Shown here one piece after another: positions 1 to 26,073 of a stretch of DNA of 64,000 bases. The notes beneath the pieces are model-generated. The model was not told where the DNA came from and ran no database searches. It was given only the letters and a program-made list of their open reading frames with translations. The stretch comes from Chrysophaeum taylorii (lineage: Eukaryota > Sar > Pelagophyceae > Pelagomonadales > Pelagomonadaceae). The position numbers and the translations under genes were made by a program. The stretch is taken from assembly GCA_029834535.1 (NCBI GenBank), contig JAQMWT010000523.1, positions 62,001-126,000 of the forward strand, given 5' to 3'. Every line of letters begins with the position of its first letter. Position 1 is the first letter of the stretch.

Positions 1-3000
1 TACTTCAATCACGAGCGTATTAACAAACCTGCTCTCGCGGCCTGGCCAGCCATAACGAAAGTGTACAATATGCACTATCTCCCTAACAAAACGCGCGCCA
101 TAATGCTTATAGCATTTAGCTTTTATGAAACTGTTTCGTCTAACGATGTCGCGTACTTAAAACAGCAATTTTGCGCTGTCGTTTACAATCTTGACTGGTA
201 TGTACATGTCTCCATTGAATGTGTGCAGTCCTTCAGGCATCTTTCTTATCAACTTAATCCCGAGGAAACTAATCTTCAGTTCGACGAACCTACTCTATGT
301 CGGAAGGTTTACGAAGAAACTTTCAAACATTTCGCCAATAGTACCAGCAATAACAGGTACAACAGGGGTTGGGCTGAATGGTGCATCGTCTATGAGACGC
401 GCTCATCTCCAAGAGCTCAACCTGGATCAGACAAATTATGTCATCCATCCGACTCATCCCATATTCTTGAATTCGCACTGGATCGCATTGGATCTATATA
501 ATCCAGTTTCCAATAACGCCGAACACAAAAGACGCCTTGAGGCTCCTGTCTCTTGGATACCCTACGTGGAGGGTCTGTCGACACATCAAAAGCCAAAGGT
601 CTTATTAACTCAATTGCTGGACACTACTGACACTGAGCTTAACCATACAGCACACGTGTTCACGACTCTTACTGCCGCAGCCTCTGGACCTTCCAAACCC
701 CAGTTTGACCCCAAGCGACTTAGAAATGCTAAAGACGCAAGTCAGCCTGTCTCTCGCAATGACCTGAGCTATTATCGCCCTGGTAACTCCTATGTCACCA
801 AACCACGTGGCCCTGGTCAGACCAATGACCAACCCGTGTATGCGCGAACTTTCGATCGCTCTGCTCGATCAGATATGAAATTGCTAGATCGCACTAAACA
901 TACTACGGATGCTCTCAAGGAACAATATAAAGAACTCTCTCGGCATGCTCCGCATAACGCCACTACAACGCAACTGCAGGACAATGTAAAACAAACTGTT
1001 TGAGACATTACTGCACTCCGCTGACATTATCCCTACCTGCGCTTCGTACGATAGCACAGAAGTGCTTCGCCTTAACGAACAGCTTAACAATGCCGAAGAT
1101 ATTGTGCATAGTGCACACACACATCTGCTTTCGACCGAAACGTCGTTAAACTATGGGTCAGAGCAACCTACCGCTTCTGAACCCAACTCTACTAAGTCTG
1201 CTGGCTCTGATGGTCCTACTAACGCCATTCCTACTCCCACCGAGTCTGTGAATTTCACTGAAGCGCCTATAGCAGAATTAACCCCTGATCAGCTAAACGT
1301 ACTTTCGTCTCACGTGACAGCAGCAATGTGCCGTCACAGCTCCGCTCAAGCTACGGTGCAGTCGAACAATCCTACTCCAACTCAAGCTACAAACACTGGA
1401 CTTTCGCCCTTTGACATCGAAAATGGTCTAGGGTGCTGACAATGGGGAACCAACTCCCCCGGTAGCTCCAATCAGCTTCACCCGAGTTGTTGTAACTTCC
1501 AAATTGATTAGCCAACCAAGCTTTTCTGCAGCGAGCATTTCGTCCACCAGTGTCCATAGCGAGAACGAATTTTTAACCAAGTATATGAGGGATCACAACC
1601 TCCCTCTTCATTATCAATTCCTCTATCTGGACAGTTATGCATCAATATCCTTGACGACAACATTTGATTTCGCTATCCCTAATCCTATCGTACCGATTGA
1701 TCCTTTAATCGCCCCCGTTGTCCAAACTGCTACAGGTCAACAACAGGTCTCTCATCTAATGCTGACTATGAACATTGTCACACCATTACGTGACCACCCT
1801 GGCATCGGCTATGTTAAAATTGACTATGCCTTGTTTTGCAGCCAGTGTAAGGACGTCAACTTTTTGTCCTCTCCGCTCCCGAGTGGAGCAAAACTAAGCT
1901 GACAATACGCTTAACAGCAGCGATCAACCAAGTTTGTCCCATCTCACAAGCCTTATAGACAAAGATGTCAAGATACCTATCCATTTCGGATCATGATTTG
2001 TCAGCTTTACCTTGTCTACCTTACACACTTGCACGTGATTGGAACATGTAACTAAGATCATTGGCATTTCCGCTTAACAGGTATAACGAAAACAGGGACC
2101 TTTGTCATTACTACTCGTACCTTATGACCAAAATTCCCTTCACGTCCCTGGCTCCATCCTTTACTACCTAATCTTCGCAAGCGCAATGAATGTGTGCGCA
2201 ACAACACGACACCACTGGTATGACCGCATTCACGACCAGTGTTCTTATCTCTTGAACACGGCAAGTCCCGTACTCCATCTGTCATGTTACTATGTTCTGG
2301 TTTATCAACCCCTGCACACGCATGTTACGTAGACGATTTCCATATGTGTTGATCTTCCAATCTCTCCCTTCCTTGTTTACTAACCATCTCCACTCTATTA
2401 CTGAGGAGGAGATATTACACTGTATTGTGATATAATAGAAATCACACCCCCTTGTACCAACCGTAATGACAAACTTTCTGAAGAGCACTAACAGCTCTGA
2501 CTTGGTCAGCCTACTCGACGATGCTCTATTTGACAGCATGCTTACCGTCATCAAGCTGCTCATACCCCTCGTTCTTCTAGCGGAAATGACACCGCCTCAT
2601 AAACAGGTACACCACGATCACATTTCTGTGGCTAATCTTATCCATGCCACTCTCGATTACACGGTTGAAGTTGTCGACCGATTTCCCACTTACCTCTGCG
2701 GCGATTACCAATAGCGAGAGAGGTGGATCTGTGTTGGTCGTAGGTAGAACACCGGCAACATCAACGTGTTTTCCTGGCCTAATCAACACCCGAAACGGTG
2801 TCTGGACATCGCAGATGATATCACTGCCGTTCCAAAATCACTCTGGATGTCGAAAGAACTCGCCAAGGACTCGATTCGAATTTACCCAGATCTACCTCTG
2901 GTGTCTTCACCCAAAACATGTCCATTGTACTTTCGCACAGGTTCTATTCGGCTAAGTATGAATGAACTTGAAACTTTAAACCTCTTGTTCCTCAGACTTC

Positions 3001-4350
3001 ATTCTCAACAAGCTCTCGAGCAAGCCACCCATAATTCACCTTCTGAATGCATATACCATAATTTGGGCTTCATGCGGACCTCCAATAAACCACTACCGGG
3101 ATCATCTAATCCCATTCGCCTCATTCGAAGCATTCATCACGCTCTACAATGTATTCGCAAGGCTCTTGCCTAACTCACCCACTCCTGTGTCCTATTATAT
3201 TGCGATTTTAGAAACTAACCAACCTGCACACAGGTTATTCCTTACAAACTCATCATCCACGTACAACATCTACTTTCTCTCTGGTGATAAACACTCTGAA
3301 GGTAACCTCCTAGTTGAGAACAAAGTCAACAAGTACAAGGCTTCTATTCACCCATTTGGATCTACCTACACGCTAGCCTCTTCCGATAACCCAGCTGACA
3401 AGTCTATTCACTTGGATCCTTTCAAAGGCTACCGTTGGCCTGTTCAGTCTTATCCCCAGGTCGACACTGCTCATGGCAACCTTCCTGCCATTAAAAACCT
3501 TCTCACTCAATGTAACCTTGTTATGCCGCACTGTGTCACCTACGATTCTGCCTGCGACCAACTTTCTTTTAAGGACAAGCATTTCGCCTTAGAAGACTAT
3601 CACTTATCTCATAGTTGCTACCTTGGCTTCTTACGGAACAGTGATCGCAAGCTTGGCTCTAAAATTCATTCCATGTTTGCCCCCTTGCCAACCATTCGTG
3701 GATATGCAAAGATCATATTACTCGATCCTCGCAATGGAAAGCTTAAAGCTTCGATATCCAACATGCCCAAAACTTATAAGAGCCAACAATCATACCCGTC
3801 CTCAAGAGTCTTTCCTATTTTCTCTCAAGAGTGATTTCTGCTGCGATCTTCTAAGCAATGCCCTGCCTGCTGCTACATACCATACTCTCTATACTCACCT
3901 CTGTCGCATAGTGTTCGACATGAAGTCTCTTATGTTGGCACCTAACTTTCAACATGATGCTGCGACTCAGAAGAAGACATATGTGTCTACCTTTCTCACT
4001 CGCGAACTGCCCCCCTTCAGTAACAGTTCTGACAATATTTCTCAAGCAAGCGCATTCATGAGCCATATCTCAAACCGGAGCTGGACCGAAATGTCGTTAA
4101 ACTACCGCTCCTCAGGAAATGCACCTGAAGAAGCACTTACTTCGGCAGTCTCAGAGGAGGATGAGCATGCTGACGCAGACTCTAACGACGACGGAACTGT
4201 ACCCTCCTTAGATCCACGTGCTGAGCTTAAATTCAGCGTACGTAGGAAAAAGCACATACCCGCAAAGTCGACTCCTCGCAAGGTTCTACCGCACGGCACA
4301 GTGGAGCATCAGAATGCTAAAGAACGGCAGATCTTCGCATCCCTGAAACT
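1..4350 (+). mobile_element. Remnant of an LTR retroelement (probably Copia-like), old and broken
   Basis: This stretch is clearly less GC-rich than the host genes downstream and carries only short + strand open frames. The region around 1600-1900 encodes a retropepsin-like segment: a strand ending in LDSYAS, followed after a spacer by an alternating hydrophobic stretch with ATGQQ, the usual shape of a Copia protease. The segments before it (about 60-1440) are hydrophilic and gag-like. Those after it (about 2460-4350) are not recognised and end in an acidic, then basic tail. Two separated points (about 1134 and 4083) share a near-identical word reading gaccgaaa-gtcgttaaacta, which hints at duplicated or rearranged material. 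No LTRs were found. It is broken in many places and looks old. The family call rests mainly on the protease-like piece. Confidence 0.4.
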
Positions 4351-4913: not shown

Positions 4914-7760
4914 ATGCCCAGTACCTCGTTGTCCTCGCGCCCCCCTGGAAGCGGTCTTCGCCCAGCCCAGGTCGCTCGATGGGCAACGCGCCTCGCGAAT
5001 TTCGACCCTGAATTAGGCTACAAACCCGGCAAGTCGCCCGGGATGAGCATACCAGACTGTCTTTCTCGAAACCCTACAGAACATATGATCATCGCGACCG
5101 GCGAACTTGAAAAACCTCTCAACCACGCATATCTAGTTGTCCAAGAATTGCCTAAGACCAAACGACGACAACGGGAAGCCGATCCCAGGATGTCACGTGA
5201 CCCTGTCCTTCATCACGACGGACATCCCAGAAGAGGAAGAAGATCCCCCAGACGGCCCGTCTTCTTTCTGTGTCGTATGTGTCACGAGACAACGGCAGAA
5301 AGTTCACCTCCATTATCAAACGTCAACTACATCCTCTGCACGATGCAGCTGGTACACAAGGATAAGAACCCTCAGAGCCGTACTCTCTTGGAAATAGCGA
5401 AGGCTCAGGAAAACGATCCTGTGTGTGACAATCCGTTCTCGCATGGCTCAGGCGCGTTCCCTTCGCAAATACGTCGCCAATTGCTGTTTCGAGATTATCA
5501 ATGGAGTATTGTACCGGATTGCCACCGATTTACAACCTGTGTTTGTCGCTCCCGCAACTTCGCGCGAAATGATTATCCGATTGTAACACGACAACCCCAA
5601 CAACGGTGGGCATATGGGCCGCGACAGCACTTGCCAATCGATCTCCGAACGCGCTATTGATGCCCATATATGTCGAATAAGTTCGACGACTTTATTGGCC
5701 AGTGTCTCATGTGCCAGAAAGCTCGCACACCCGAGCCGAAACGCCATGGTTTTCTGCGCCAGCCCGCCTACGATGGCAGTTGCGTCACCCTCTCCATGGA
5801 TCTCTTCGGACCGCTGACGAGCGCCGGTCCCAGCGCGTATATCTTTGTCACGTTTGGTAGTTTGCCGCTCAGGCTCCTCACGGACAACGGTGGCGATTTC
5901 AGCAGCGAGATCATGCGCGACTTCTGTATAGCTTTCGAGGTTCGTTACCACACGACGGTACCATATCACGCTCAAGCGAATCCCGCCGAACCAGTGCACA
6001 ATTTTCTCGAGGCTTTCCTTCGCGCCTCTCTTCAGGACCGCAGTGTCACGGAGGAGAGGAGGACTAGCCTGCTTTCGCGAAATATGTGGCATTATGTTAC
6101 AATCGACATGGGCTCGGTACTCTCTCGCAACTGTAGTGACTCTGAGGACGTTGACTCTCGTCTGAAGAAGGCGGCAGCGGCTTTCGGTGCGCTCCGTCAC
6201 TACGTTCTTGCCTCGAGATACGTCCTTGCCAAACGAACTGTCTACGTCGGTCTCATCCTCGCCATCCTCCTTCACGGAGCGGAATATGCACCATGAGCGC
6301 CTAACCGAGGTTGTCTACAGTCGCTCACGATACTTTTACGCACAGTGCGCACGCGCAACGTGCCGCGTTACGCGTCGTCAGACCTGGCAATATCATATCA
6401 AAACTTCAACCCTCTTCCAACGCCTCGGCCTGGAGACTATCGACATCTACATCTTTCGCCGACATCTTCGCAGGGCAGGCCACGTTGCCGGCACGCCCCG
6501 GAATTGCCTCCCTCGGAAGACGCTCACTTCTTGGTGCGCCTCCATACGTCCCCGCTGGTCCCAAGAGTTCACGTACGGCCGTGGTTTGAACGAGGCACTC
6601 CGCAAATTCAACATACTGACAACGACTTGGTAGTACCAATGGTACTCCTCGCTTAAAACCGTGACAACTGGCGACAAAAAATCAAGTCGTCCTCAATTCC
6701 CCTTTCTACACCCCCCGTCTCGTTGCCCAGTATCTCTGATCCCACGCGCCACGGCGCTGGGATGATTAGCCTACGCCCCATGCACTGGGCTGGCTTATAG
6801 TTACTTAGCTAGCTATCCCCGAACACAGATGTCGACGACGTTCGTGCTTCGTACGAACCGTCAGCCGATACTTCCGGCTGGTTAAAAATTGATCAACCAT
6901 CCCGTCAAGGTTTGCCCAAGTTCCTCGCCGATGCTTTGTCTGAAACCAAGAGCGCTTTCAAGTTTTACACTCAAGTCGTGGCCGAAGCTCATCACCGCGC
7001 TTAAACGACCCAGAAATTAGCTGACGACGCCGAGCACAACGATGTGGAATACGAAGATGGATCTCATTTGCTGCTGTATATCCCAAAGCTAGTTGCCCCT
7101 AAAGTTGGGTGGACCTTTCCTCATTATCAAGCGACTTTCGTCTGTCATCTACGAGATCAAGCCTGTCGACCACCCTCCAGAACAGCGCATCGTCTTTGTC
7201 CGACAGATGATTACACCAGCTTCGGTTCCCCCGATTGTAGACCGCGCTATTTGTAAATCCGCCAGCACTTTTCGAGATGACTATCGGCCATGTCGCTTCG
7301 TCATTTCCGCATTCCTGATTTTAAAGACTGTTCATGGCGCGCAGAGTCTAGGTCGTCGAAGTCTACGAGTGCTACGTTTTCGAAAACGACCGCGTTGCTC
7401 TACATTTCTATTCCGATCTCGGTGACGACGACGAACTGTCCACCCACTTCTCACTTGTTGACTCGTAAACTCAAACCCGAATTTTATGATGTTGACGGAT
7501 GCAACGTTACTCTCAAGAAAAACATCACACCTCAATGCCCCCCGTGTGTCATGGATTTCGCACTTCACGAGATCGACGTTCTCATCCCGAACTTCAAACT
7601 TCAAAGTGGCCGAGTCCCCGCCGCTGTTTCAAAACGCGTTTACGATTTACTCGATATCACGAATCCCATCTCCCAAAGTCCAAGAAGTCGAAGAGTCTGT
7701 TAGAAACTCAAGCGCGGAAGGCAGCCTGAGCTTAACCAAATCTATAGAGTCCAAGTAGGC
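4914..7760 (+). mobile_element. Gypsy retrotransposon remnant (3' part of pol), old and broken
   Basis: The parts seen, in order, are the end of RNase H with its tail (RLANFDPELGYKPG, then SIPDCLSRNP), the integrase zinc finger (CLMCQKA), the integrase core (SMDLFGPL, LLTDNGGDF) and the integrase C-terminal region (TRKLKPEF-DVDG, FALHEIDVLIPNF). The RNase H tail and integrase C-terminus closely match the corresponding parts of the Gypsy element at 17360-26027 on the opposite strand, so the two are the same or sister families. It is broken by several changes and split by a LINE fragment at about 6040-6815. No LTR matching the younger element follows its pol end. It looks clearly older than the - strand copy. 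Confidence 0.8.
6040..6815 (+). mobile_element. LINE (non-LTR) 3' end inserted in the Gypsy remnant
   Basis: The text between the two halves of the Gypsy integrase is of LINE type. It holds the end of the reverse-transcriptase domain and the post-RT region: GSVLSRN followed by DVDSRLKKAAAAFGALR, then YVGLILAILLHGAE, then in a second frame FRRHLRRAGHVAG, LPRKTLTSW and YGRGLNEALRKFNI. The pattern 'RRLRWLGHVARMP...LPRKLLTSWV...TYGRTLNKAL' is standard for the C-terminus of many LINE ORF2 proteins. The two LINE segments lie in different frames, so at least one frameshift separates them. It is 5'-truncated, as is usual for LINE copies. About 150 bp of non-coding sequence follows before Gypsy integrase sequence resumes at about 6815. 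The clade is not assigned. Confidence 0.75.
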
Positions 7761-7850: not shown

Positions 7851-7855
7851 TCTCC
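7851..7855. repeat. Target-site duplication, left copy (Copia element)
   Basis: The bases tctcc immediately precede the left LTR and recur at 17205-17209 immediately after the right LTR. A 5-bp duplication is the usual size for Copia integration and fixes the element's boundaries. Confidence 0.75.
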
Positions 7856-8050
7856 TAGAGAACAGTAATCACAACTGTGTTACCCTTCAGCAGAGCGTGA
7901 GAACAGTGGTAGTCTGTCCTCGAATCTGTCTCTTAATCGAGGACAGCCGGTGTGAATAACACAGCGTTTTCTTTACATCAAAGGTGGCAAATTAAGTGAA
8001 CTAACCCTAAAACAGGGGGTACTAACCCTAGTTCAGATTTTCTATCTCTA
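7856..8050 (-). repeat. Copia 3' LTR (195 bp)
   Basis: Nearly identical to 17010-17204. In + orientation it begins TAGAGA and ends TCTCTA, a perfect 6-bp terminal inverted repeat in place of the usual TG...CA ends. It lies next to the element's polypurine tract, so it is the 3' LTR of the - strand element. Confidence 0.9.
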
Positions 8051-8299
8051 CGCCCTCTCAGATTGAACGTGGGGAGCGAAATCTGGATCAAACTAAGCGG
8101 GAAGCGTCTTACCATCGACAAGAATGTAGAGAGTGTTCTGGACAGAGTCGTACGGTGGAAGAGCAGCTGAAAGAGTGACTTGATGGGATGGTGGGGAGGA
8201 TGAAGTGGAGTGAACGCCGTAGGCGTTTTTGAACTTGTGAAATAAGTTGCGTTGAAGGAGCTTCGAAAAATGATCAGCGACCTGGTAGAGAGTAGAACA

Positions 8300-9800
8300 C
8301 CAGAGAGGTCGAACGATCGAGTTAGCTTGGTAGTTACGAATGCGAAATTCCCGTAAGTTGATATGACGATAAGGAGCGCTGACTTTAGGATGATTAGCGA
8401 CATGTAGTGCGCTAGCGTTGTCAATAAGCAAGGGGATAGCGTGAGCTTGATCACACGAAAACAGATAGGGGTGTGAGGAGAAAAGCTTGTAGAACCAGTG
8501 ACATTCATCAGCGGCTGCGCTGGCGGCGATGAGCTCAGCTTCCATGGTGCTCTTGGCAGTGAGAGTCTGGCGTTTGCAAAATACGAGATTGCCAAAGACG
8601 AATATACATGCACCAGAATTGGATCGTAAGCGAGGGTCAGAACGATCAGCAAAGCTTGCATCAGTAAAACAGATAATAGGTGAACGAAGATGATGCAGTT
8701 CAGGATAGTGAGCGATCAGATGCTGAATAATGGGGGTAATAGACGGGCTGTCGGATGAATAGTCAAGGGATTCATTCGGAGTGCCCATTAAATAGCGAAG
8801 TAAAACATATAAGTGCAGAAGATGGGTTTGGTCAGGGTTGTGCATCCCTTTGCAGCATTTGTTGCACAATGTGGTGATGTCCGGCCGACATGTGACAGAC
8901 AAATAAATGCTGGTGCCACAATAGAAAGGGAAGTTTTGGCGTAATACATCTAAGGTAGTAGCCAAGTCTGAGAGAAGTTTAATAGAAGGCTTTTGGACGA
9001 GGATGTCCGAATAGGGGGCGTCTAGGCTATGTAGATTGAGCTTATGCTCAGCAAGCATCTTGCTGATCTTCGCTGCAACATTCATAGTGAGATGACCAGC
9101 GGAGACATTGTAGTGGACATCGATGCCAAGAAAGGATATGATGTTGTCATGCCATGTACCCTTGCCATATTCAGTCTCCAGAGCGGTGCGAAGAGACGCA
9201 ATTTTGGCAGTGTTGGTACCAGTGATCAATAGGTCATCGACTGAAACGGATAGTAATACCCATTGGTTGATAGATCGATCCCATTTGATATAAAGACAAG
9301 TATCGACTTGTGAGCGTTCGAACTCATGCTGTCGAAGAAATGAGTCGAGCTTAATATTCCATAACAAAGCTAACTGTTTGAGGCCATAGAGAGCCTTGAC
9401 GAGTCGGAGAGCGAGCTTCGACTCTGGATGGTTCTTCTGTATCTGCTGGACACTATTTGGAGAGACACGTATTCCTCGAGGAAAGTCGATCCATACCGGG
9501 CGATCGAGTGCAGATTAGATGAATGCCTGAGGAATGTCCGCGTTCGCGACAGGGAGCTTGTGCTTCACAGCAATGGCGAGCAGTAGCCGGTTGGTAGCGA
9601 GCATTGCGGTTGGTGAGGATGTGGCATAAAAGTCAATACCTACACGTGCCAAGAAACCTCGGGCGACTAGACGAGCTTTATGGCGGTCTGGAGTGCCGTC
9701 AGCAAAATACTTGATCTTCAGCACGAGCTTTGTCGAGATGGACGAACGGTCTGGTGGTAAAGGCTCAAGCTTGAATACACCATTGGAGCACAATCCTTCA
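8300..9800 (-). CDS. Copia reverse transcriptase and RNase H region (fossil)
   Basis: These are parts of the Copia pol. The RT N-terminal part shows DRHKARLVARGF and later ANADIPQAFI, matching the Copia consensus (YKARLVARGF, then D-NAFL). The RT catalytic core shows VSVDDLLITG, the Copia equivalent of YVDD. RNase H shows FTDASFADRSD, SNSGACIF and KSTMEAELIAAS, which carry its acidic residues. The segment lies between the integrase (upstream in the element) and the 3' LTR, as expected for Copia. It is broken in more than one place and is treated as a fossil. Confidence 0.85.
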
Positions 9801-11389
9801 ATTTCCTTGCGAATCGAAGCGATATGCTTTAACTTATCTTAAGTTCGACAATCTTTTCCGGCTCATAGACGATGTCTTCAGCGGTCACAAGTTGTAACAC
9901 GACGTGATCGATGTGCTGCAAATCATCGTCCATGACTTCTTGTAGAATGTCTTGATTCGGATCACTTTGACTGAGGAAGAGGTGTCCGAGTTCGCCAGAA
10001 TCATGCATGAAGGCATGCCTGTGACGAGAAGCTAGATGGTAGTGTTGATGCGCGGAGATGTCCCATAAAAGAGAGGAGCCCATACAACAGAATTCTTGGT
10101 TCCATTGACGCGCATAGTACTCTGCCGGTGACATTTCGTCATTGCACATGTAGTTCTCGAGAACAGAATTGTCGTTATCAAGGTGGTCAACCAACACAGA
10201 CGAGTGGTATGGCTTCCTGGGGAAGTCAACGTACAAGAGTTCCGCGTCGGTTTCTCTCTGCAAATCCAGTGCGGTGCCGCCCATGATACCATAGTCTTGT
10301 GTGTTACTTGCTAGGAGACATCCTTTCGGGACATCATTAGGCGGCTTAGCTTCTCTTCGAATGTTGAGAGCAGAGGCGATGCTGGCGGCGTGGCCCTGGT
10401 GCAGAGCGCTGACACTGATGAGGAACATCAATGTACTGGACATGTTGGCTGTGGCGTGAGCCGTGGATTGCTCTTGCTGGTATTTCCAGTTGCGACCATA
10501 CTCTGAGGCGAGAATGCGTCTGGTGAAGAGTTTTTCCATCGTCAACACATTTCACGATGTAGAGTTGATCCTTAGGGATGCGGAATCCACGTTCGTCATT
10601 GAGATCTGCTTTGAGTTTATCGCTCTGGTTACGATGCACGAGAACTGGAGTAAAACCTGAATCGTCGAGAACAACCTCTAGGCGATCTTTTCGTTTGGGC
10701 ATCGGGATGCTACCATCCGGTGGAGGTGGCCGGTTGAGGAACGAAAAATCCTGTTCAGGCGTCGCGTCGCTGACGGGACTTGAATCTGCAGCGGGAGTTG
10801 GATCCAGTTCTTTGTGGTTGTCGTCATCGCTAGGTTGGTCATCGTGCTCGTCTTCGTGAGTCTCGCCCTCATTTTTTGATTCCTGTCTAATTTCCGGCAT
10901 TTGCTGTTCGCTTATGCCTGGTAGCGGGTCCTCTTGTCGTGCCTTTGGTGGGATCTGTGCAAGTGCTTTGATCCGTTCGATCTCCTTGTTTCGGTTGACT
11001 GGCATGTCCGCGTCGACGTGAAAGTCGTTTGAGGTAACGATTTTTCCATATCGCCCTTGATGTACAAGCAGGATAGAGCTGTGAACATCACGGATAAATC
11101 GGTCCATACCGGGGAGGTTCGGGAGATAGTTGTTACTATGAAAGTAAGAGGCAGAGACGCTGGAGGGTTCCAGTTTGTGACTTTGAGGGTAGACGAAAGT
11201 GACAGGTTCGCCAAAGGGGAGACGCTTCAAGAGCGGTACCGTGGGCGACATGATACGCCGGGGAACGGTGCATGGCATGTGCGTGCGCGAAGGCAGGCCG
11301 TGAGAGCGCTGGTTGTCGGCTTGGATCTTATGCAGGAGAGCAAATCGGTGATAATACTCAGCGGCAATAGACTTTCCTTCGATGCGTAC

Positions 11390-11860
11390 ACTGCGAAGGT
11401 TGAGAAGACGAACCACGGTGCCGCGGGTGTTTTCTTTTATGATGTTTTCAGCAAAGTTCCGCTGGTGGAGGTGTCGACCAAGGATTTGGAATTGGAGACC
11501 AAACTGCACCTTGAGAGGGTGGAAGGCTTCGGAGCGAAAAGTCGAGAATGCGTCAGATGATATGATCTTCACATGTACATCGAATTCGACTTTGATGACG
11601 TTAACCACATAGAGGATGCCGGCCAGAACATCTTGCGCGTCTAATTTTCGTAGGAAATAGACCCATTTGTGTGCTGAGATGATACACACGAAGTGCTGCA
11701 TGATATAGCGAAATCCGCCGTAGCACTTGTGGATGCTCGGGTATGACACATCCATGTGGAGGTGTTGGCCAGGACCATAGGCCAGTTCGTCCTGTGACCA
11801 GGAAATGTTCTTGTGACGGAAGCTGACATGCGATTGACAGCGCTTGCATTCGCTGTAGTC
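11390..11860 (-). CDS. Copia integrase core (fossil)
   Basis: This lies in the same long open frame as the methyltransferase. A C-x2-C pair (ECKRCQSH) precedes the core, whose acidic residues sit in QHLHMDVSYP, IISSDAFSTF and NFAENIIKENT, consistent with the D-D-E order of retroviral-type integrases. A strand of aromatic and hydrophobic residues (FRYIMQHFVCIISAHKWVYF) between the first two is typical of Copia. Downstream in the same frame is an acidic Pro/Asp-rich linker leading to the RT region. Confidence 0.8.
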
Positions 11861-12322
11861 TTGTAAATACCGATCGTCACCTGGGCGGAGATTCGTTACA
11901 TTAGCGGCAATCGTGCGGCGAAGAATCTCTGGTTGCTGGTGGTGTGTGCGGTGCCAGCGAGTGACCAAAAGCACTCTTTTGGCGTGCTGAGTGGCGCCGG
12001 GCTGGTGCAAGGGCGGCAGAGCGGCAGTCGAAGCGCTGGGGGGGCTGGGTCGCTTGTCGACTCGGATCTTAGCAACGGTTGCCTCGGCAAGAAGCGTCTC
12101 GAGGTTTGTCGATTTGCTTGGTTTGCGGATCGCATCATGGTGAGCATCTGCAACGGCATTGAAGAGGGAGGTGAGGTTCAGGTCTTCCTCTGCTAGGAGA
12201 CGGCTGGAGATGGCTGAGAAGAATTCTGCAACCTGGTGGATGTCTCCAGGGCTGGGGATGCCATGGCGTATTGTAGCCCATTCGACGTGAAGGTTCACGT
12301 GGTGGTGCGATTCGTGGAATGC

Positions 12323-13906
12323 GAGGACAGCGCTGTACTTTGCCTGCAACATGTGGTGCGGGACGGCGTTGGCCAGTGCCTTGAACGCGAAGTACGGCGG
12401 GTGCTGTTTGAACAGGTGGAGCAGTTCCGGGTCCGAGTGGTGTCCAAATTTTGCGATTTCGTTGAGGGTCGCGTAACGTATGTGGTCTGGAGAGATCAGC
12501 AGCAAGGCATTGGAGTAGCTCGTGTTGGTTGGGTACGAGCCAGTAACCGAGTAGCACTTGGTGCTCTTCTGAAGTGTGTCTCCGATGTGGCCGACATAGT
12601 CCGCGTAAGTGGGACGTGCTTTGGACATTACGAGTCCCTTGGGGTCATCGAGAGAAATTCGCCCTTGTGAGTCGATCGCGGCAAAGCCAGGATGCGAACG
12701 ATTCATATAGTGGACCCAAGTGGACGGGCGCGAACAGCTGTGAGCGGCGGCCAATGAGGTGGTGTAAGCGACGACCAGAAAGGCGGTGCCCTTGGGAACA
12801 TCCAGGGAAAAGGAGTGCGTTGGGGAGAAGACAGCGGGTTGATGGGGACAGTCGAAAGTCTTAGGGGGCCTGGAATGGAGGGTGAGGGAGGCGCGTGGGA
12901 AGTAGCCGCAGGCGACGGCAGTAGCGGCGGCGCTGGTGATGGCTCCATCCAAATGGTAAGCACATTGAGACTCTGAGGCATGAAAACAGCGGATGGTGTT
13001 CCAAGCGGCGAGAGTGGGGTGTTGCGACAAATGGTTGTGCAGGAGCGTGAAAACCAGTAGGTTGGAAATGGACGCCATGGTGGCGTAGGGGGTGCCGTCG
13101 GCATCGAGACCGAGGTCCGTGAAGGGCTTGTTGAGACGTGCGAGCATTTGGCAGATGCGGGCATTCTCGGAAATCGAGAGTTTCGACGCGTTTGCGGGCT
13201 TGTAGGAGTAGGTGGCCTTGTGCTGGTAGTAGTCCAATGTGGAACGGGACACTGTACCACGAAGGGCGGGTGTGGCGATCCAGAGATCGTCAGGGATGGT
13301 GTGACTGGGATCCAGGAGAGGAACCATGCTCGGAGGCGAGGTTAACCAAGGGGAGGCGGTTTTCTCGAGGTTGTAGCCGGTGAGCGGGTGCCGGGCATAC
13401 ACAGCGAGATAGCGTGTCTTGCTGATGACATCACCAAAAGCAGAGGCATTGTAGACGCCGGAATGGCGGAAGTAGCCTAAGCGGTGATAACCTTTGGCGA
13501 GTTGAGCATACTCATGTTGAGTTCGGGGGTTGGGAGGGACGTTCTCGACAATGGTATAGGTCGGGAGCGTGCAACGAACGAAGCGGAGTTGTTCTTTGAC
13601 AAAAAGGTCGGCGGTGACCGGAGTGGCATAACCGTCGTAGTCCTTCATTACACTGAGGTGTTGGCAGGGCAATGTAAAAACTGCCAGGTCGAATGTAGGG
13701 AGTCGGATTTTGCCGGTTTGGAGTGCGGCATTGAGTTTTCTGAGGTCCGCATAGTGCTTGGCATGCGGGAACAGGTGTTGCGCACGGGTGCGTAGGATAT
13801 CGTTGATTTCACAGGTGACTACGACAGTTAGGCGTTTGTCGAAGCGTTTGCGAAAAGTGGCGAAGCCTTTCTGGTGAAGTCCACCTGCAATAATGGCTGT
13901 TTTGAG
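12323..13906 (-). CDS. Cytosine-C5 DNA methyltransferase domain inside the Copia polyprotein
   Basis: This occupies residues ~88-615 of the long open frame 14167-10346. C5-MTase motifs appear in the canonical order: motif I-like glycine loop AIIAGGLHQKGFATF (SAM binding), motif II with its acidic residue VVVTCEIN, motif III around HYADLRKL, motif IV TLPCQHLS with the PCQ catalytic cysteine, motif VI IVENVPP, motif VIII YNASAFGDVISKTRYLAVY, a long variable target-recognition region, motif IX IRYATLNEIAKFG and motif X ALANAVPHHM. The reaction expected of the family is transfer of methyl from SAM to C5 of cytosine in DNA. It sits between retropepsin and integrase with no stop between it and integrase, so it is part of the polyprotein and not a host gene read through. 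The target-recognition region is unusually long. Confidence 0.85.
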
Positions 13907-14399
13907 CAGAGGGGTTTGTGTTTGCACAGAGAGGTCTGCGGAGCCATTGAAGGCGTAGTGGACGACAGGAGATTTGATGTTGAGCAGTTCGGTAAGATAC
14001 ATGGAATGATTTTGTAACTTCGCGAAGTCAAGCGTGTGCGATTGTGAGCGTGTCTTTGCGACATGCTGTGTGATGTGTGCAATCTCATTGTGGCGTGACA
14101 TTCGTTTTCTTGTGTGAAAGCTAACCACAGTGGCGAATGTTTTCCAGGAATGGGGTGGCAGGGACAACAGGCCGTTAGGCTTGCGAGCGGCAAGTACGAC
14201 GGCGGTCTTTCCTAGAAGTGTTGCGTTATTGTGGGGGTCTGAGGTCGAGCATTTTAAGAGCTCATAAAGGTAGGGCTCGTGGGGCAGTGGCGGGTCTATT
14301 GCTTGTACATGCAGAGCTTTGAGCTGGGACTACCAGAAATACGAGATATAATACGTAACCTGTGTTGTCTTTTGTATCCTTTGAAGAGAGACCTGCAGC

Positions 14400-14560
14400 C
14401 TGCAGATACAACGGTTTAACGCCGATAGAGTGACTGGTAAGAGTGCCTCGTCCCATATGAATGGTGTGTTCGGGAATTCGGCGGATGGTCTCGGGAACAA
14501 AATTTTGAATTGTGCGCGTAAAGCAAAAAGATGTGCCACCGTCAATCAATGAGGTTTCAG
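14400..14560 (-). CDS. Copia retropepsin-like protease (fossil)
   Basis: The frame shows SLIDGGTSF followed by alternating hydrophobic residues and HTIHMGRGTL, which fits the single-domain aspartic protease of Copia elements. It lies between gag and the methyltransferase. Its role in the family is to cleave the polyprotein. Confidence 0.55.
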
Positions 14561-15054
14561 TGCCGGGGCCATTGCAGCCGTGCAAGGAGATAGTTTTCTT
14601 TGAGGTCTTGTTTGGGGTATAAGTTGCATAAAGAAAATCTGCGACTCGTGTGGAAATAGCGGATGAAGTCGGGAAATTCGTCATCTGGAGGTTTGGTGCC
14701 TGATGAAGTAAGGTGTGGTTGGCGGCAAAGGCGTCGTCGGCAACCATCAGCGAAAAAGCCGACTCTGGTGGAGAGCACGCATGTAGTCACTGTGACGTTT
14801 AGCGTAGTCTTCGGCTGAGTCATCTTCATCATTGGTTTCGGGAATGGCGTCGTCGTAGAGGTCTAGCTGACCTTTGTCGTCATAGAAGCCGAGATGTCCT
14901 TGTTCTTCTTGTTCATCGGTTTCGGCTTCGTCCTCATCAGGTTGATCGTCTTGGGAATCGGACGTTAACATCTGGAGGAATTCGGCGGCGTCAGTTTCGG
15001 CTTCGGAAAGAAGTATCTCGTCGGAAATGGGGGTGATGAGGTTGATGAGCTTGT

Positions 15055-16849
15055 TCATATGCTCGGAGCTGGACGTATGTTGGCGACCGGCTTGGCTAAG
15101 GTTCCGTATGGTTTGGAGCTTGCGACGGACTTCACGAAGGGGGACCTTGAAGCGTTGGTCTGGAGTAGACGGTTTGGGTGGATGAGGTTGTGTTGGGAAG
15201 GTGACCTTTCGAAGATGCGGGTGCTCGCGTTTGTCAGGGGTGACAGGAGGTGCGCGGGGACGGTGCTTGTTCTTCGGTGGGGTGATAGGGGTGGCCTTGG
15301 TTTTAGGACTGTCATTGACGTCGTAGTAAGACGGGGAGCGAGGATTAGGAGGCTTTTTGCCTGGAGGGGGCTTTTTGACGTGCCGCGAAATTTGCTTCTT
15401 GCGGTAGGCGTGTAGTTGGTGAATGAGGTCATTGTCTTCCTCTTGATCAAGATTGGCCTCCGTGCGAAAAACGGCGACGGGGTCGGTGTCTTCAATGGGG
15501 TCCGATGGGGTGTCGTCTTCAGAGGGAGAGGTGTCATCATCGTCTTCGGTGAGGTGGAGACATCATCGTCTTCGGTGAGGTGGAGACCATGACGGCGGGA
15601 GCGAATGCGGGGGTTGTCTTTATCATTTGTTGGCAGACGACCAAAGTCCGTAACGAAGCGCGAAGGCTTGAAGTTAAGAGTGGGGTGAGGCTTGAGGTGA
15701 GCCCAAAAGTTGCGCTCGAACGTTGAAATGACGGTGATGCGAGCGATGAGCTTAGGAAGGTGGTGGATAGCGTCCTTGTCTTCGTCGAGTAACAGCGAAT
15801 CGTTGGGAGTGCGCAGACAGTTAGCAAGACGTGCAAAGCCCTTTATGTGTGTTGGGGCGCGGGAGTCAAGCAAGCTTGGGGGGTACTTGAAGCGGAGAAT
15901 TTGGTGAATTTCTTCGAGGATCTTGTCGTCGGGAAGTTGGAGAGAAGCGTCCGTGGTGATCTGGCGGAGTTGCTGCTGGACATGACGCATGTAGTCGATG
16001 TAGTGAGCTGGCTCATGGATTTCAGGGTTGAACGGCGTGTCCAGAAAGGCATTGTAAACATGATGCGCATGATGGATGTGGTTCTGGCCCGTATGCTTAT
16101 CGAGTGCGAGGCGAACTTGAAGCACGAATTCGAGTCCTATCGGGTAGGAGGATCCGAGTGCATTGATTTCGTCGTATGCTGGATGCTTGACGGAGTGGCT
16201 ACCAGCATGTAGGAAACGACGAAAGAGGGGGTGTACAGTCTCGCGGAGGTATATGATGAAGTCGGCTTCTTTTCCTTGGAGATGGGGTTGAGTGATCGGA
16301 TATAACTTGCCTTTTTGTCATATCGGTCGGGTCCTTGTCTTGGGCTTTGAGTTCTTGGAGCTTTGGCTCGTAGACGTTGTCCAGGAAGTGCTTGCCGAAC
16401 TTGCGGTACACACCATTGTAATAGACGTAACGGCCTTGGAAATCTTGCGTATTCCCGGCGGTAGAGTGGTTGTCGGGGTCCTTGTCGTATTCGTTGATAC
16501 AGTGGCTTAGGAGAGCGTCAGCGAGATCGTTAGATCCGCGTAGGACGGATTCCCATGTGTAGAAGCCCTGTAGGAAGTATTGAGTTATACCTGTTTGAGT
16601 CATCAAATGTTCGACGAACAATTGCATGACACGAAACGAAAGCATTTGCGGTGTGATTTGCGCCGAGTCCATGGACTTGAGAACAGCACTTGGTGGATCA
16701 CTAAAGGTGTTAATCTTGGACTTGGGATCTTGTTGAGCCGGAGTGGGAGGCGGAGCCGCAGCAGCGACGGCAGGTGGTGTCTGCATGGCGTTAAATCGCG
16801 CTTCGAGTGCTTGTAAGCGAAGGTCGTATGCTTGAGCTTGTGCTTGCAT
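15055..16849 (-). CDS. Copia gag region (fossil)
   Basis: The first coding region after the 5' LTR holds a Gln/Ala-rich coiled start, a helical capsid-like section (LKSMDSAQITPQ to FGKHFLDNVY) and a second section with LEEIHQILRFKYPPSLLD, the 'lpesy' type pattern of Copia gag. It then becomes basic and Ser/Thr/Pro-rich. It would encode the particle protein. It is broken and only its general character can be given. Confidence 0.6.
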
Positions 16850-17009
16850 CTCCCTTTGATGCTTTGCATCTCAGCGAGCTTCTTGTTTTTTTATCTCCTT
16901 CTGGAGTTCTTGGTTGGTTGGCATTTTGCTTGGGTTCAGGAACGTCAGTTGACTTGACTTGTCTGGAAATCCTGGGGCTCTGCTGATACCGGGACTGGTG
17001 CCCAATACC

Positions 17010-17204
17010 TAGAGAACAGTAATCACAACTGTGTTTACCTTCAGCAGAGCGTGAGAACAGTGGTAGTCTGTCCTTGAATCTGTCTCTTAATCGAGGACAG
17101 CCGGTGTGAATAACACAGCGTTTTCTTAAATGAAAGGTGGCAAAGTTAAGTGAGCTAACCCTAGAACAGGGGGTACTAACCCTAGTTCAGATTTTCTATC
17201 TCTA
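17010..17204 (-). repeat. Copia 5' LTR (195 bp)
   Basis: Matches 7856-8050 with about eight differences, begins TAGAGA and ends TCTCTA, and is followed at 17205-17209 by the tctcc target duplication. It adjoins the gag side, so it is the 5' LTR and should hold the element's promoter. Confidence 0.9.
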
Positions 17205-17359
17205 TCTCCTTTCCGCTCGACACTCCGACACCCGCCAACCTGAGCTGCTTTTATCAGCGCCTTAACCTTCGAGTTTATCCGCTCTGCCCTTAATTAACCT
17301 TTGAGTTCGCTCCTTTGCCGCTTATCTTCGACGTCTTCGTCACACTTTTTCCTTGTCAC
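17205..17359. other. 155-bp spacer between the Copia and Gypsy elements
   Basis: No gene seen. The words gccaacctgagctgctttt and ccttcgagttta resemble the unit found repeatedly at 45.6-45.9 kb and 52.3-52.4 kb (ccaatctaagctgcttt, cctttgagtttactc). The pre-insertion site therefore probably already lay in that dispersed repeat family. Confidence 0.4.
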
Positions 17360-17701
17360 TATGGCGGCATAGAAAAAAAAAACCTTCCCGACCCCCGGGT
17401 GACAAAGGGGGTACTCACCGACTCGTCCTAGACCTCACTGAACGAGGAATCACTGAACGAGGAAAACACGGACTCGGGGTCGGATATGCTCGCCACACAC
17501 CTTGCTCACGCTCACCAAGCCTCTCAACAAGATGGAGAGATGGTATATGATAGCAAGAATGCTACAAGAATACTGCAAGAATGCTTCTCACAAGAGAGAG
17601 GTATGATGTCACTAGGAAGATAGGGAAAGGCGTCCCGTTGAACGCGCATCAAGCCTCGAGAGAGGGGGGGTAAGCCTTAGCGGTCAGGAGTCGCCGCCAC
17701 A
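17360..17701 (-). repeat. Gypsy 3' LTR
   Basis: Shares its whole length with 25702-26027. Read on the - strand the LTR starts TGTGGCGGC and ends GCCGCCATA, a 9-bp terminal inverted repeat with one mismatch. It contains an extra copy of a short tcactgaacgagga word compared with the other LTR. It directly follows the end of the integrase region. Confidence 0.9.
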
Positions 17702-17731
17702 GGACTCCCCTGGTGAGAACACGACCTGCCC

Positions 17732-18319
17732 TCAGCGAGTCCGGCGAGAAGCACGAGCCTTAGCTGAATGAGCATCTCGGGAACGAATCTTCTTGTAGGC
17801 ACGTTCAACGACAGGTTCAGGAACGCGTCCACCACGCAAAGTGAACTTAGGAATCAACACATCGATCTCATGCGGGGCGAAGTCGGTGACACAAGGAGTG
17901 GTACTGTTGTTGACCTTGGTCTTGTCGGTGAAACTGCGACCGTCCACGTCCTTGTATTCCGGCTTAAGCTTGCGAGTAGAGAGATGTGAAGTAGGCTTGT
18001 AATAAGAAACCTTGTCATGGGGACCAAGATCAGCATAGAAATGCAGAGCGACTCGGCCATTCACAAAATCATAGGGTTTATAAAGTTCAGCGACGTAAAT
18101 CTTCTTTCGCCAATCGGACCGTTTGTTATCCGGAATCCGAAAGATAACGAACTTACCATGCTTGTAATCATCCCGAAAGGTCTCCTTGGGCTTGGGCACA
18201 GCTCGATCGACCACTGGAGAAACCATCACAGGGGTGAGCTGGCTAACATGAACACAACGGCGTTCGGGAGAAGAATCAAGAGGCTCAATCCTGTAAGTGA
18301 CCGGGGATAAGCGTTCCAA
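17732..18319 (-). CDS. Gypsy integrase C-terminal region (fossil)
   Basis: Residues such as RIEPLDSSPERRCVHVSQL, VVDRAVPKPKETFRDDY, LSTRKLKPEYKDVDGR and FAPHEIDVLIPKF align with the + strand remnant at 7100-7740, where the same segment follows the integrase zinc finger and core. That comparison identifies it as the tail of integrase. It ends just before the 3' LTR. Confidence 0.75.
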   Translation of the reverse strand: MERLSPVTYRIEPLDSSPERRCVHVSQLTPVMVSPVVDRAVPKPKETFRDDYKHGKFVIFRIPDNKRSDWRKKIYVAELYKPYDFVNGRVALHFYADLGPHDKVSYYKPTSHLSTRKLKPEYKDVDGRSFTDKTKVNNSTTPCVTDFAPHEIDVLIPKFTLRGGRVPEPVVERAYKKIRSRDAHSAKARASRRTR

Positions 18320-18499
18320 AATAACGAATGGACCTCTTTCTCCACAGGCAACTCAGTCGTAACAAACGACAGAATGACATGGCACCCAGGGAAAGGTACT
18401 CCTTCATCATTGACAGAGCGAGGGAGTTCTTGGCACACTAGATACGCGTGGTTCAAGGGTTCACCAAACTCGTCCGTCTCAATGACATGATCTATAGGA

Positions 18500-20000
18500 T
18501 TGCGAGAGAGACAGTCAGGGATACTCATTCCCGGCGACATCCCTGGCTTGTAACCCAATTCAGGATCAAAATTGGCGAGCCGCATCGCCCATCGAGCCAA
18601 CTGCCCAGACGAGTGCTTCGCCTTTCGTAAAAACGTCAAGTTGCGATGATCTGTTTCAAGGATCGTCTTGTGACCTTCGATATAAGAACGGAAATGCTCA
18701 AGAGAAAGAATAACTGCCAGTAGCTCTAGCCGGCGAGGCTCATAGTTCCACATCTCTTTCGGCACAGCTCGGCTCCAATACTCAATTACTCGTTCCTCTC
18801 GTCTCACCTTGCCGGTTTCGTCCTTGACTTCCACGAGCTGAAAAAGATACGCACCCAGACCATCCTTGGAAGCATCCGAGCGGATCTGAAAAGGAAGATC
18901 GTAGTCAGGATGATAAACTCCGCGAGAGTCCACCAAAGCTTCGATGATCGTATCCCATGCCTTTTGGCACTCAGGCGTCCACTCAAACTTAACGCCTTCA
19001 AGACACAATCGCCTAAGCGGCTCCACAATCTTCGAATAATTCTTCACATATCGGCGGCAATAGTTGCTCATGCCAATGAAAGATCGAATCTGGGTCTTCG
19101 GGGACGATTAGGCAACGTACCAGGAATCGGCATCTGCTGCGGCGCTTCTAACGTCTTGGGTTTCGGCTTCAAGCCTTCCGGAGTCGAAATATGTCCCAAA
19201 AACTCGATTTCATCCTTGAGGAGGTGGAACTTCGAAGTTCGTCCACTATATCTTCGCTGCGCTAAATGGCACAACACTTCAATCAAAACTTGTAAATGTC
19301 GATGGGGTTCATCCGATCCCATCATAATATCGTCGACAAACGCGACCAAGTCCTTATACATCCATGTGGACAAATCGCTAGCCATCTGCTTACAAAAGAG
19401 AGCGCCTGCTGTTTTTACTCCTAGAGGCAAGCGCAAGAAACTATGGGCTCCTAGTGGACTAACCATCATAAAGGCGTCCTGAGCGGCGGCGTCCAAACGT
19501 AGGTTATGATAGCCCCATCGAATATCAATGCACGTCCGCCAACGGCGCATGGCAAGAAAAGCCAAAGCATCATCTTGACGAATATTCGGCCAACTGTCAT
19601 TGACCAGCTGATCATTGAGCTGACGCGAGTCAACTGCAGCGCGAAAAGCATTCGACGTCCCGGCCTCTGCTCCCTTCTTAGGCAGCATCAGTACAGGGAA
19701 TCCCCACGGAGAGTTCGCCGGTCGGATGACTCCATCGCGACACCACTCAGTGATCTGCTTTCTGAGACACTCGAGCTTTGCTGGCGTCTACTTATAAGGC
19801 GTCATCTTGATCGGTCGTGGGTTTGCGTCTTTAAATCGTAGAGAAACCGGTGGCGAGTCCACGGGTCTCATAATCGGATCAAAGAAAGCCCACGCGTATT
19901 GCACGCAGTGGCTCAACATCATCTTCGCATCATCATCCAGATGCGGGTTGTCGGGAATTCCCAGATCTCGAACAACCTTTTCAACTTCTTCCTTCGTCGG
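18500..20000 (-). CDS. Gypsy reverse transcriptase and RNase H (fossil)
   Basis: RT motifs are FRAAVDSRQLND, CIDIRWGYHNLRLD, FLRLPLGVKTAGALFCKQM, the catalytic AFVDDIMMGSD, and FHLLKDEIEFLGHI. RNase H motifs are YCRRYVKNYSKI before the domain, FQIRSDASKDGLGAYL, RRLELLAVILSLEHFRSYI and ILETDHRNLTFL, then GMSIPDCLSRNP. RT followed by RNase H and then integrase is the Gypsy (Metaviridae-type) order. It is treated as a fossil and not read as one protein. Confidence 0.88.
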
Positions 20001-20517
20001 AATTACGACTTTCATCGCATCATTGTCCTTGACGTGCTCGGGAGTCTGCGGTAACGGTACACCGTCCGCATCGCGCGGCGCATCCTTCCATGGCACATCG
20101 AACTTTTCTTCGTATTTGAACCTCACCTCAGGGTGGCTCTTATTGATCTTTTCACCTTTGACGCGCACATTCGGCTCGCTCCTTACTTTCGGCTCCTGTT
20201 CAGGTTCAGGATCCGGCGGAACGTCCACTTTTGATTGTCGGGGGGGGGGCAGCAGAAAAAGCATGAGCCGTCCCCGGCGCATCTGTTGGAAGCGGAAGAA
20301 TAGGAACTTCTGGCGGTTCCCATTTAGTGGGATCCTGGAGATCATCTTTTGACACCCACTTAACGACACGAGTACGCGCATTTAACAGCGGAATCTGCAC
20401 GTGACGAAAGGTGGTGTCAGAGATTCGCAAATACTGCTCAAAGGATCGATCTGTCGGGCTCAGCGCGGTCGGCAGGACTTCGCCACTTTGGCGGAAACCT
20501 CTGGTCACGGAGTTGTG

Positions 20518-21360
20518 CAGATCGACTGCTAGAATCGCAAGAGTGTCTGGAGGGACGACAGACGCTAAATGTTTGAACGAATCCGTCTTAGACAAGCTAG
20601 CCCAATCATGGTCCACCGCCATCGTGAGTAAATCGGCCGTCATCTCGAGAGTCAAAGGCTGAGTGTCCGAGCGATGCGGTCCCAAACGAAGAGGAACTCG
20701 CGTAACGGTGTAAGCCGTATCTGTTGCTTCTCGGGACGAGCCAAGATTATTCAGCTGGAGCAGGTGGCGTTCATGAGCATAACCTAAAGCTGCAGCAAAC
20801 TTTTGTTGCATGTTCACACATGTCTTCGGAGCCTCTTGCAAGTACAGTGGGTGACTGGAAACCAACAATCGCACGCGAGAGTTCATCAGAGTGGGCGTGA
20901 TATCATGAAAATTGACAACGTACACGTAAGGGTGTAAGCGCGCTATATACGAAATAATGGACGCCTCCTGTTCAATCAGCCACATCATGAAGCCAGCCAT
21001 TTTGCACAGCTTCATCGTCCAGTTAGTGGCCGTAACACCCCTGGCAACATCTCTGGATGTCAAGTTGCAGAGTGCTGAATGAACGCAGGGTGGAGACGCT
21101 ATACACATCGACGATGACCATTCCGCTTCAGGCAAACAAGCCTTGATCAACCGGAGGGTCGTTTCATATCGTCCGCAGAGCGTGTGCTGAACCACAGGTA
21201 TCTTCGGAAAATTCATCTGATGAACCTTGTTGGCAGCTGTTGAAGAGTCAAGAGCAAGGGCGACTCGAAGCGACGTCCCGCACAACTCGTTCGCTCGTTG
21301 CAGTCCTAAAGTACTTCCTCCGGCGCCGCTAAAGAGCAGCACAACCTTGCGATACGTGAT
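20518..21360 (-). CDS. Cytosine-C5 DNA methyltransferase domain inside the Gypsy polyprotein
   Basis: This is residues ~70-350 of the open frame 21567-20206. Motif I is VVLLFSGAGGSTLGLQRA, nearly the textbook DNMT glycine loop. It is followed by RVALALDSSTAANKVHQMNF (motif II with a paired acidic residue and H-NFP), IASPPCVHSALCN (motif IV region with the cysteine), a helix at WLIEQEASIISYI (motif VI position), TPTLMNSRVRLLVSS (motif VIII), PLTLEMTADLLTM (motif IX) and HLASVVPPDTLAILAVDL (motif X). The size, about 280 residues, suits a compact DNMT catalytic domain. It lies between the protease-like end of gag and the RT. It shares no obvious close similarity with the Copia methyltransferase beyond the motifs, so the two appear to have been acquired separately. 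Confidence 0.85.
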
Positions 21361-22007
21361 CGACACCCAGTGGACCTTTTCAAACCCTCGGCGAATCTCG
21401 CCTTCTGTAACTTCTCGGCATTTCTTTTCCTCCTCGTCAGTTCGTCGGTCGAAATCGTCGTTACCGAGCGATTCTTGACGAGAATTCTTCTTCTTATCGG
21501 CAGAAGGAGACGCCTTCTGCACCGAGCTCAACAAAACGAACAATATCGCCCAAAGCAAGGACTTCACCTGGAGTAATCACGGTCGGCACATCCTGGGTAG
21601 AGGATATCGCCACTCGAGCTGCGAACTTATCATGATCCTCAGGAGAAGAACACATTCCATCGACTACCCCGAGTTGCTCGTACCCAGAAGACGTAGCAAC
21701 GAAAACTTGCCCAGTTTCCATGGGCTCTGAAAGAGCGACTGGCACGCAGTAGGTGCGCCCAGGCTCGACCTTCATCGTGCGCGCAGCATAGGCTATCACT
21801 TCATAGGCATCGCTGTTCGAACTTTGAGAAGGCGTAACGGGAGGGATTCCCCAAGTCGTCGAAGCTCCCGCTCGTTTCGGCGGTGGACGCTGGAGGTCTT
21901 CAATCTTGCTCAAACGAGCGTAGACTCGGTTCTCAACTGTGCTCAGGCTCTGTTGCATCGCATGGTGCTGTTGCCCATAAACCTGAACTACCACGGGATT
22001 GCGCTCG

Positions 22008-26027: not shown

Positions 26028-26073
26028 GGCACAAAGCGCACCAGGTCCTCTACCATAAACCAGACGCGAGACC

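Follow-up and report, generated by a model that had tools for sequence, protein, structure and literature searches.

DNA methylation is ordinarily directed at transposons, and an element that seems to encode a cytosine methyltransferase of its own raises the question of what that enzyme is, whether selection keeps it and on which nucleic acid it acts. The case considered here lies in a stretch of 64,000 nucleotides (contig JAQMWT010000523.1, positions 62,001 to 126,000; hereafter the window) of Chrysophaeum taylorii, a pelagophyte and marine stramenopile alga, whose genome sequence (70.8 Mb in 697 contigs) was searched. Judged from its sequence, window 7856-17204 (minus strand, as are all window features below unless marked otherwise) is an old and damaged Ty1/Copia long terminal repeat (LTR) retrotransposon, referred to here as Copia-A. 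An initial annotation had read it as a Copia element with a DNA methyltransferase (DNMT) in frame between protease and integrase, and this interpretation is supported. We consider it on balance probable that the Copia Pol carries a C5-cytosine DNA methyltransferase (MTase) between a protease-like stretch and the integrase, and that this enzyme methylates the element's own complementary DNA (cDNA) or its new insertion. Published sources are cited by PubMed Central identifier, for what the accessible parts of each text state; the published C. taylorii assembly, built from short and long reads, is given there as 71 Mbp in 702 contigs (PMC10366177).

The methyltransferase domain

The domain occupies 12326-13909, from motif I to motif X, as delimited by the Pfam profile PF00145, a MAFFT motif alignment and an AlphaFold2 model compared by Foldseek. 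The open frame 14167-10346 described for it is real, 14167 being the first TTG of a frame that extends from stop to stop over 14329-10346 (1327 codons), and within this single frame the MTase is fused to the integrase without a stop, as had been claimed. PF00145 matched residues 134-260 of the window protein P0001 (E 2.4e-7, 30.9 bits, cut-off 22), and it matched nine of the 12 Copia-A copies scanned at E<=1. In the alignment, which included 5 viral and 18 DNMT2-type sequences, motifs I, II, IV (Pro-Cys-Gln, PCQ), VI (Glu-Asn-Val, ENV), VIII, IX and X follow each other in the expected order. Motif IV with the catalytic cysteine lies at 13661-13669 and motif VI at 13538-13546; among the copies covering each site their residues are conserved at 91, 97 and 91% and at 94, 94 and 91%, respectively. 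The target-recognition region had been described as unusually long, and some 300 residues do separate motifs VIII and IX (approximately 12480-13400, with low model confidence); the region is conserved, without a confident fold. Taken alone, motifs IX-X are weak: 7, 2 and 9 of 3000 shuffles scored at least as high as the real sequence in three of the four Copia-A copies tried.

The AlphaFold2 model of the core has a pLDDT (AlphaFold2's per-residue confidence) mostly of 70-92 over residues 1-180, falling to about 50 at residues 81-100, and Foldseek placed DNMT2, DNMT1 and HhaI among its best structural matches. A Rossmann-type catalytic core was recovered in this predicted model, from an alignment seeded with MTases, and the motif IV/VI pair is present. 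By sequence the Copia MTase is weak against a DNMT2 profile (19% probability, E 0.0012; E 0.011 to 0.074 with the hidden Markov model, HMM), and the same four copies score better with a bacterial/viral DNA-MTase HMM (E 2.1e-7 to 4e-6). Searches for outside relatives at E<=0.001 found none for region 60-640 of P0001 among 7993 candidates scored and none for profile A1 among 7996; only the candidates sharing most words were scored, with the Copia-B, Copia-C and Gypsy MTases described below not among the queries, so that this is no proof that outside relatives are absent. Viral contigs gave no match for profiles A1 or A2, and in the viral MTase scans two plasmid MTase queries returned nothing and a third returned 9 loci. 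A sequence search of the PDB yielded nothing useful for P0001 and a single weak match for A1, to the C5-type methyltransferase 8yf3 (E 0.3). The companion domains BAH, chromo and SNF2 had no Pfam match in the longest pol frame read, of 1952 codons.

Copy number and selection

The MTase domain is present at no fewer than 71 distinct loci of the genome (84 matches), a lower bound, 71 of the 756 first-look candidates having been scored. Contigs C10 and C297 share element copies whose coordinates almost coincide, and both enter the copy counts; they are probably allelic or duplicated contigs of the assembly, and two of the 71 loci may be one. In the C96 copy the protease-like stretch, MTase, integrase and reverse transcriptase share the frame of 1952 codons, and the C314 copy has a single pol frame of 1868 codons in the same order. 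The continuous reading of protease, MTase and integrase proposed for the window copy is found in these sister copies; the window copy itself retains the MTase-integrase part of it, and a frame break near 14325 separates the protease-like part.

The ratio of nonsynonymous to synonymous substitution rates (dN/dS) was computed over 35 copies (three duplicate loci dropped) for pairs sharing 80 codons or more, with dS >0.1 and no saturation. Over pairs that are non-independent, in that they share lineages and include post-insertion decay, the median for the MTase was 0.207 (557 of 595 pairs kept), with 0.178 for motifs I-VIII (557 pairs) and 0.204 for the middle part (541); motifs IX-X fall below the 80-codon rule and so lie outside these values. 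Medians for the integrase were 0.168 in the core (453 pairs) and 0.136 in the C-terminal part (324), and those of the linkers 0.351 downstream of the MTase (488 pairs) and 0.187 upstream (536). These medians indicate a constraint on the MTase that is close to that on the integrase and tighter than on the downstream linker, though not tighter than on the upstream stretch, and by this measure the MTase is under purifying selection. An open frame whose MTase domain recurs at 71 or more loci with a median dN/dS of about 0.2 is not a product of chance. The several frame breaks of the window copy would fit a passenger, that is, an MTase gene caught in one element and now decaying, yet in the copies read the domain keeps one in-frame position, it is present at all these loci, and its low dN/dS is sustained over 557 pairs; selection and copy number contradict such an origin, which we regard as highly improbable.

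Architecture of the Copia-A element

The window copy is bounded by a 5' LTR at 17010-17204 and a 3' LTR at 7856-8050, direct repeats of 195 bp each with 95.5% identity across 198 columns, and an exact 5 bp target-site duplication, TCTCC, is read directly outside both of them (7851-7855 and 17205-17209). The LTR ends and the flanking TCTCC bear out the span that had been assigned to the element. Ty1/Copia LTRs commonly, though not by definition, have TG...CA termini; here the termini are TAGAGA...TCTCTA.

The element reads gag, protease-like stretch, MTase, integrase, reverse transcriptase and a 3' part that would hold the RNase H by position. The gag region (14750-16506) was located by tblastn with the gag open reading frame (ORF) of the C96 copy and lies in two frames, with a break near 15550; no Pfam match to gag was obtained in the window and C96 proteins scanned. 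In the three copies compared (window ~14747, L039 and L040) the stop codon of gag and the ATG of pol share bases, reading TGATG, an arrangement suggesting that pol is expressed by termination-reinitiation or a -1 shift. The first part of pol, including the protease-like stretch (14325-14786; 93% identical to C96 pol residues 1-154 by tblastn), is in a frame different from that of the MTase and has the motif LIDGGTS/LIDGGAS at the expected position, with no Pfam protease match in the window and C96 proteins. The usual aspartic protease motif is D-S/T-G. This stretch is a putative protease, an assignment which, like much of that of the integrase, is motif-based. Four copies inspected (window 14262-14747, L039, L040 and L007) have LIDGG[AT]S or LLDGGAS.

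The zinc-binding part and D,D,E core of the Copia integrase lie at approximately 11320-12000, with residues assigned by eye. The Pfam integrase core, rve, matches C96 pol residues 1016-1110 at E 0.006, under the cut-off, and the integrase has at least 150 matches in the genome among the matches listed. The reverse transcriptase region (8984-10533), located by RVT_2 and by tblastn of C96 pol, is in two frames with a break near 9838; in the C96 pol frame RVT_2 matches residues 1686-1933 (E 1.6e-38), downstream of the integrase, which is the Ty1/Copia order. The 3' part of pol (8096-8977) matches the C96 3' ORF at 90% identity by tblastn, and that ORF has no Pfam match. Relative to the C96 copy (L040) the window copy changes frame in gag and near 14325, 10532 and 9838, and a frame break or stop occurs at least once in the window copy and in each of the four full-length Copia-A copies fetched (L039-L042). 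L040 also has, at 507-941, near the 5' end of its gag region, a 218 bp tandem duplication with 99.5% identity.

Two further Copia subfamilies

A diverged MTase-like domain appears to occupy the same slot in two further Copia subfamilies. In Copia-B (L066 and L068) the MTase and reverse transcriptase matches of the C42 copy both report a 1691-codon open frame, and all 150 sequences scored (the best 150 of 905 candidates) match the MTase-like domain. Copia-C is represented by L067 and L069, on contigs C483 and C344; in L067 motifs I-VIII share an ORF and motifs IX-X follow in the next frame, and among the ORFs listed L069 has only motifs VIII-X, motifs I-VI being read in L067 only. By eye, motif IV is TPPC in Copia-B and TSPC in Copia-C, and across the two subfamilies motif VI is AEM or MEM, motif VIII ends in SRERW or ARERW and motif X is SNALP or ANAIP. 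Pro-Cys and Glu are retained in the one Copia-B and the one Copia-C sequence aligned.

Neither subfamily had a PF00145 match in the Pfam scan, and generic MTase HMMs gave weak values (E 0.027 to 4). By hhalign, profile A1 scored E 0.043 against Copia-B and E 0.25 against the L066 frame, which is without motifs I-VIII. Against the Copia-A HMM, Copia-B gives two colinear matching stretches, and one of 2000 shuffles scored as high; in MAFFT, Copia-A and Copia-B align from end to end at 22% identity; it is on this shuffle result, this alignment and the shared position that we assign an MTase to Copia-B. The N-terminal Copia-C part scored negatively against the same HMM, with no match, and the assignment for Copia-C is drawn from its likeness to Copia-B and from its motifs. 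The dN/dS of the domain was 0.104 for a Copia-C pair (dS 0.52) and 0.328 for a close Copia-B pair (dS 0.11). We had entertained L066 as an abundant second Copia family without an MTase, which was rejected when the MTase-like domain was found. A relic resembling Copia-B is present in the window itself at 560-4327 (plus strand; tblastn with Copia-B proteins, 40-60% identity), with a gag-protease-like part at 560-2102 and an MTase-like part from 2316, continuing up to the start of the integrase.

The Gypsy neighbor

Directly to the right of Copia-A lies a Gypsy element (approximately 17360-26028), with repeats 97-100% identical and RNase H Pfam matches. It has a C5-MTase-like domain at 20440-21390, with LFSGAGG as motif I, SPPC as motif IV and IEQ at the position of motif VI; in the ORF 20206-21576 the Glu stands 38 residues past the motif IV Cys (positions 140 and 102). 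PF00145 gave E 0.01 for the window domain and E 0.0016 for that of the C5 Gypsy copy (L051), both below the cut-off, and motifs IX-X failed the shuffle test in the two Gypsy sequences tried (981 and 221 of 3000). In the C5 copy a single frame, 3002 codons or longer, holds the MTase (about residues 1380-1660), reverse transcriptase, RNase H and integrase, and a protease-like stretch ahead of the MTase was recognized by eye only. All 93 sequences scored (the best 93 of 1155 candidates) match the domain. Its dN/dS between the C5 copy and five others was 0.049-0.057 at dS 2.1-2.3 (reverse transcriptase, 0.02-0.10) and among four close copies 0.03-0.07; between those four and the window copy it was 0.34-0.47, from which the window Gypsy copy looks decayed. 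Both neighbors of Copia-A in the window, this element and the Copia-B-like relic, seem to carry MTase-like enzymes too. A single MTase common to Copia and Gypsy is unsupported, the profile comparison giving E 0.31 and a single Gypsy sequence scoring negatively against the Copia-A HMM.

In a comparison that included few other MTase classes, the Gypsy MTase profile matched DNMT2 over motifs I-IV (97% probability, E 4.6e-11). This link is one argument for a different substrate, in which the domain would be an RNA m5C methyltransferase acting, as DNMT2 does, on the element's genomic RNA or on host tRNA; RNA methylation has been raised for the LINE (long interspersed nuclear element) case (PMC5890265), and a lack of clear per-site CpG decay in the Copia-A copies (below) would also fit. 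The Copia enzyme, however, is weak against the DNMT2 profile and better matched by the DNA-MTase HMM, and a long region stands in it at the place of the target-recognition domain of DNA C5-MTases; we find an RNA substrate rather unlikely.

Two other features adjoin these elements. Window 4965-7694 (plus strand), between the Copia-B relic and Copia-A, holds a piece of another Gypsy element, from the part coding for RNase H and integrase, whose identity to the C5 copy is mostly 33-39%, and a 19-bp tandem array of 16 registered repeats lies just outside the Gypsy element at 26734-27129, partly in an open frame.

Proposed role of the Copia enzyme

From retrotransposon biology, the MTase would be made as part of the Pol polyprotein and then be released or tethered within the virus-like particle, in contact with the cDNA, where it would methylate cytosines of the element's double-stranded cDNA or, later, of the fresh insertion. 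The resulting 5-methylcytosine could hide new copies from the host methylation system or hand them to it, and the benefit to the element might be camouflage, self-restraint or recruited host maintenance. The host genome has DNMT5-like and DNMT2 ORFs, the latter on contig C634 and 100% identical to CTAYLR_008533, which implies that machinery able to maintain such marks may exist.

The evidence from CpG is mixed. Observed/expected CpG is 0.96-0.99 in Copia-A, 0.90 in the Copia-B stretch L066, 1.22-1.34 in Gypsy and 1.25-1.43 in host stretches, and the corresponding TpG/CpA values are 1.12-1.16, 1.18, 0.93-0.98 and 0.70-0.93; the lower CpG and higher TpG of Copia-A relative to host genes speak mildly for self-methylation at CG. 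Several observations weigh against a DNA-methylating Copia enzyme. The CpG contrast is confounded by the higher GC of the host stretches, and Gypsy shows none. Transitions at third codon positions (CG 0.093, CT 0.111, CC 0.085, CA 0.058) give no clear CpG decay, and over all positions they are 0.054 at CpG and 0.047 elsewhere. The linker upstream of the MTase is as constrained as the MTase itself, copy C582 failed the shuffle test for motifs IX-X (328 of 3000), the core model was built on an alignment seeded with known MTases, and the unseeded AlphaFold2 model (pLDDT 29.4) was left unused. Motif I is degenerate, reading IIAGGLHQ.

This last feature would also be expected if catalysis had been lost and the domain were now a module of Pol binding nucleic acid or S-adenosylmethionine, as would the strong departures of Copia-B and Copia-C, in which ENV has become AEM or MEM and PF00145 finds no match. 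Against such a loss stand the 91-97% conservation of PCQ, ENV and the motif VIII Arg in Copia-A and the persistence of Pro-Cys and Glu in the aligned Copia-B and Copia-C sequences, and we think it quite unlikely. Another use of an active enzyme would be on host chromatin, near integration sites or genome-wide, to shape the target or silence competitors; being adjacent to the integrase within the polyprotein, the MTase could travel with it to the target, and several MTase-bearing element groups coexist. The sequence bears no sign of targeting, however, and we judge this use unlikely. Methylation of the element's own cDNA or insertion remains the reading we prefer for Copia-A.

A broader proposal, which we hold with more doubt than confidence, is that an MTase is a standard Pol component of LTR retrotransposons in C. 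taylorii, the three Copia subfamilies sharing one ancient and divergent MTase and Gypsy having independently taken an unrelated one. If that is true, the convergent filling of the slot after the protease would make self-methylation during particle-borne reverse transcription a recurrent and strongly selected strategy, and the elements, besides host DNMT5, would write part of the methylome.

Comparison with known systems

Elements that keep a methyltransferase under selection reverse the usual role of transposons as targets, and few published cases were found, namely DIRS and LINE elements of dinoflagellates and one Gypsy of a charophyte. DNMT-bearing retrotransposons have been described as LINE and DIRS elements in Symbiodinium and as Gypsy in Klebsormidium, the DIRS and Gypsy enzymes falling within DNMT3, with de novo CG methylation by the DIRS enzymes observed in yeast (PMC5890265). 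The Copia elements of Symbiodinium, according to that paper, have no DNMT domain (PMC5890265). A single sentence elsewhere places some DNMT3s in "LTR Copia and DIRS" elements (PMC12344493), citing a 2018 paper that describes, in its accessible part, Gypsy, DIRS and LINE elements (PMC5890265). In open-access full text we found no documented Copia case, no stramenopile retrotransposon case and no MTase-bearing elements of C. taylorii, and the main text of PMC10366177 has no word beginning with "transpos".

Domain searches can overlook such enzymes: among the copies scanned, Pfam has Copia-A above the cut-off, Gypsy below it and Copia-B and Copia-C unlisted. With MTases seemingly borne by three Copia subfamilies and one Gypsy family, this 71-Mb stramenopile genome would be a compact system for testing why the enzyme was captured.

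The closest parallel is KnitGypsy-Dnmt3 of Klebsormidium nitens, likewise an LTR retrotransposon whose Pol includes a C5-MTase and whose copies are under purifying selection (Ka/Ks, its ratio of nonsynonymous to synonymous rates, <0.2), which differs in being a Gypsy element of a green alga with a DIRS-like repeat arrangement and a DNMT3-related enzyme (PMC5890265). The element described here is a Copia of a stramenopile, with the MTase before the integrase, a motif IV of the PCQ type and a long VIII-IX region; the PCQ and ENV seen in the alignment assign its enzyme to no clade. SymbioDIRS-Dnmt3 and SymbioLINE-Dnmt of Symbiodinium share with it a retrotransposon C5-MTase, high copy number and selection, and differ in being DIRS (tyrosine recombinase) and LINE elements (PMC5890265). 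Sola1-1_Ec32 of the brown alga Ectocarpus is also a stramenopile transposon with a DNA methyltransferase gene, but it is a DNA transposon with a separate gene whose predicted product is N4-methylcytosine or N6-methyladenine (PMC12477816). Host DNMT1, DNMT2 and DNMT5 and the bacterial HhaI-type enzymes include no close sequence relative of the Copia MTase, with identities of 14-19% in the alignment. Set against the published systems, what appears to be new here is the Copia superfamily, the host lineage and the occurrence of unrelated-looking MTases in two superfamilies of one genome.

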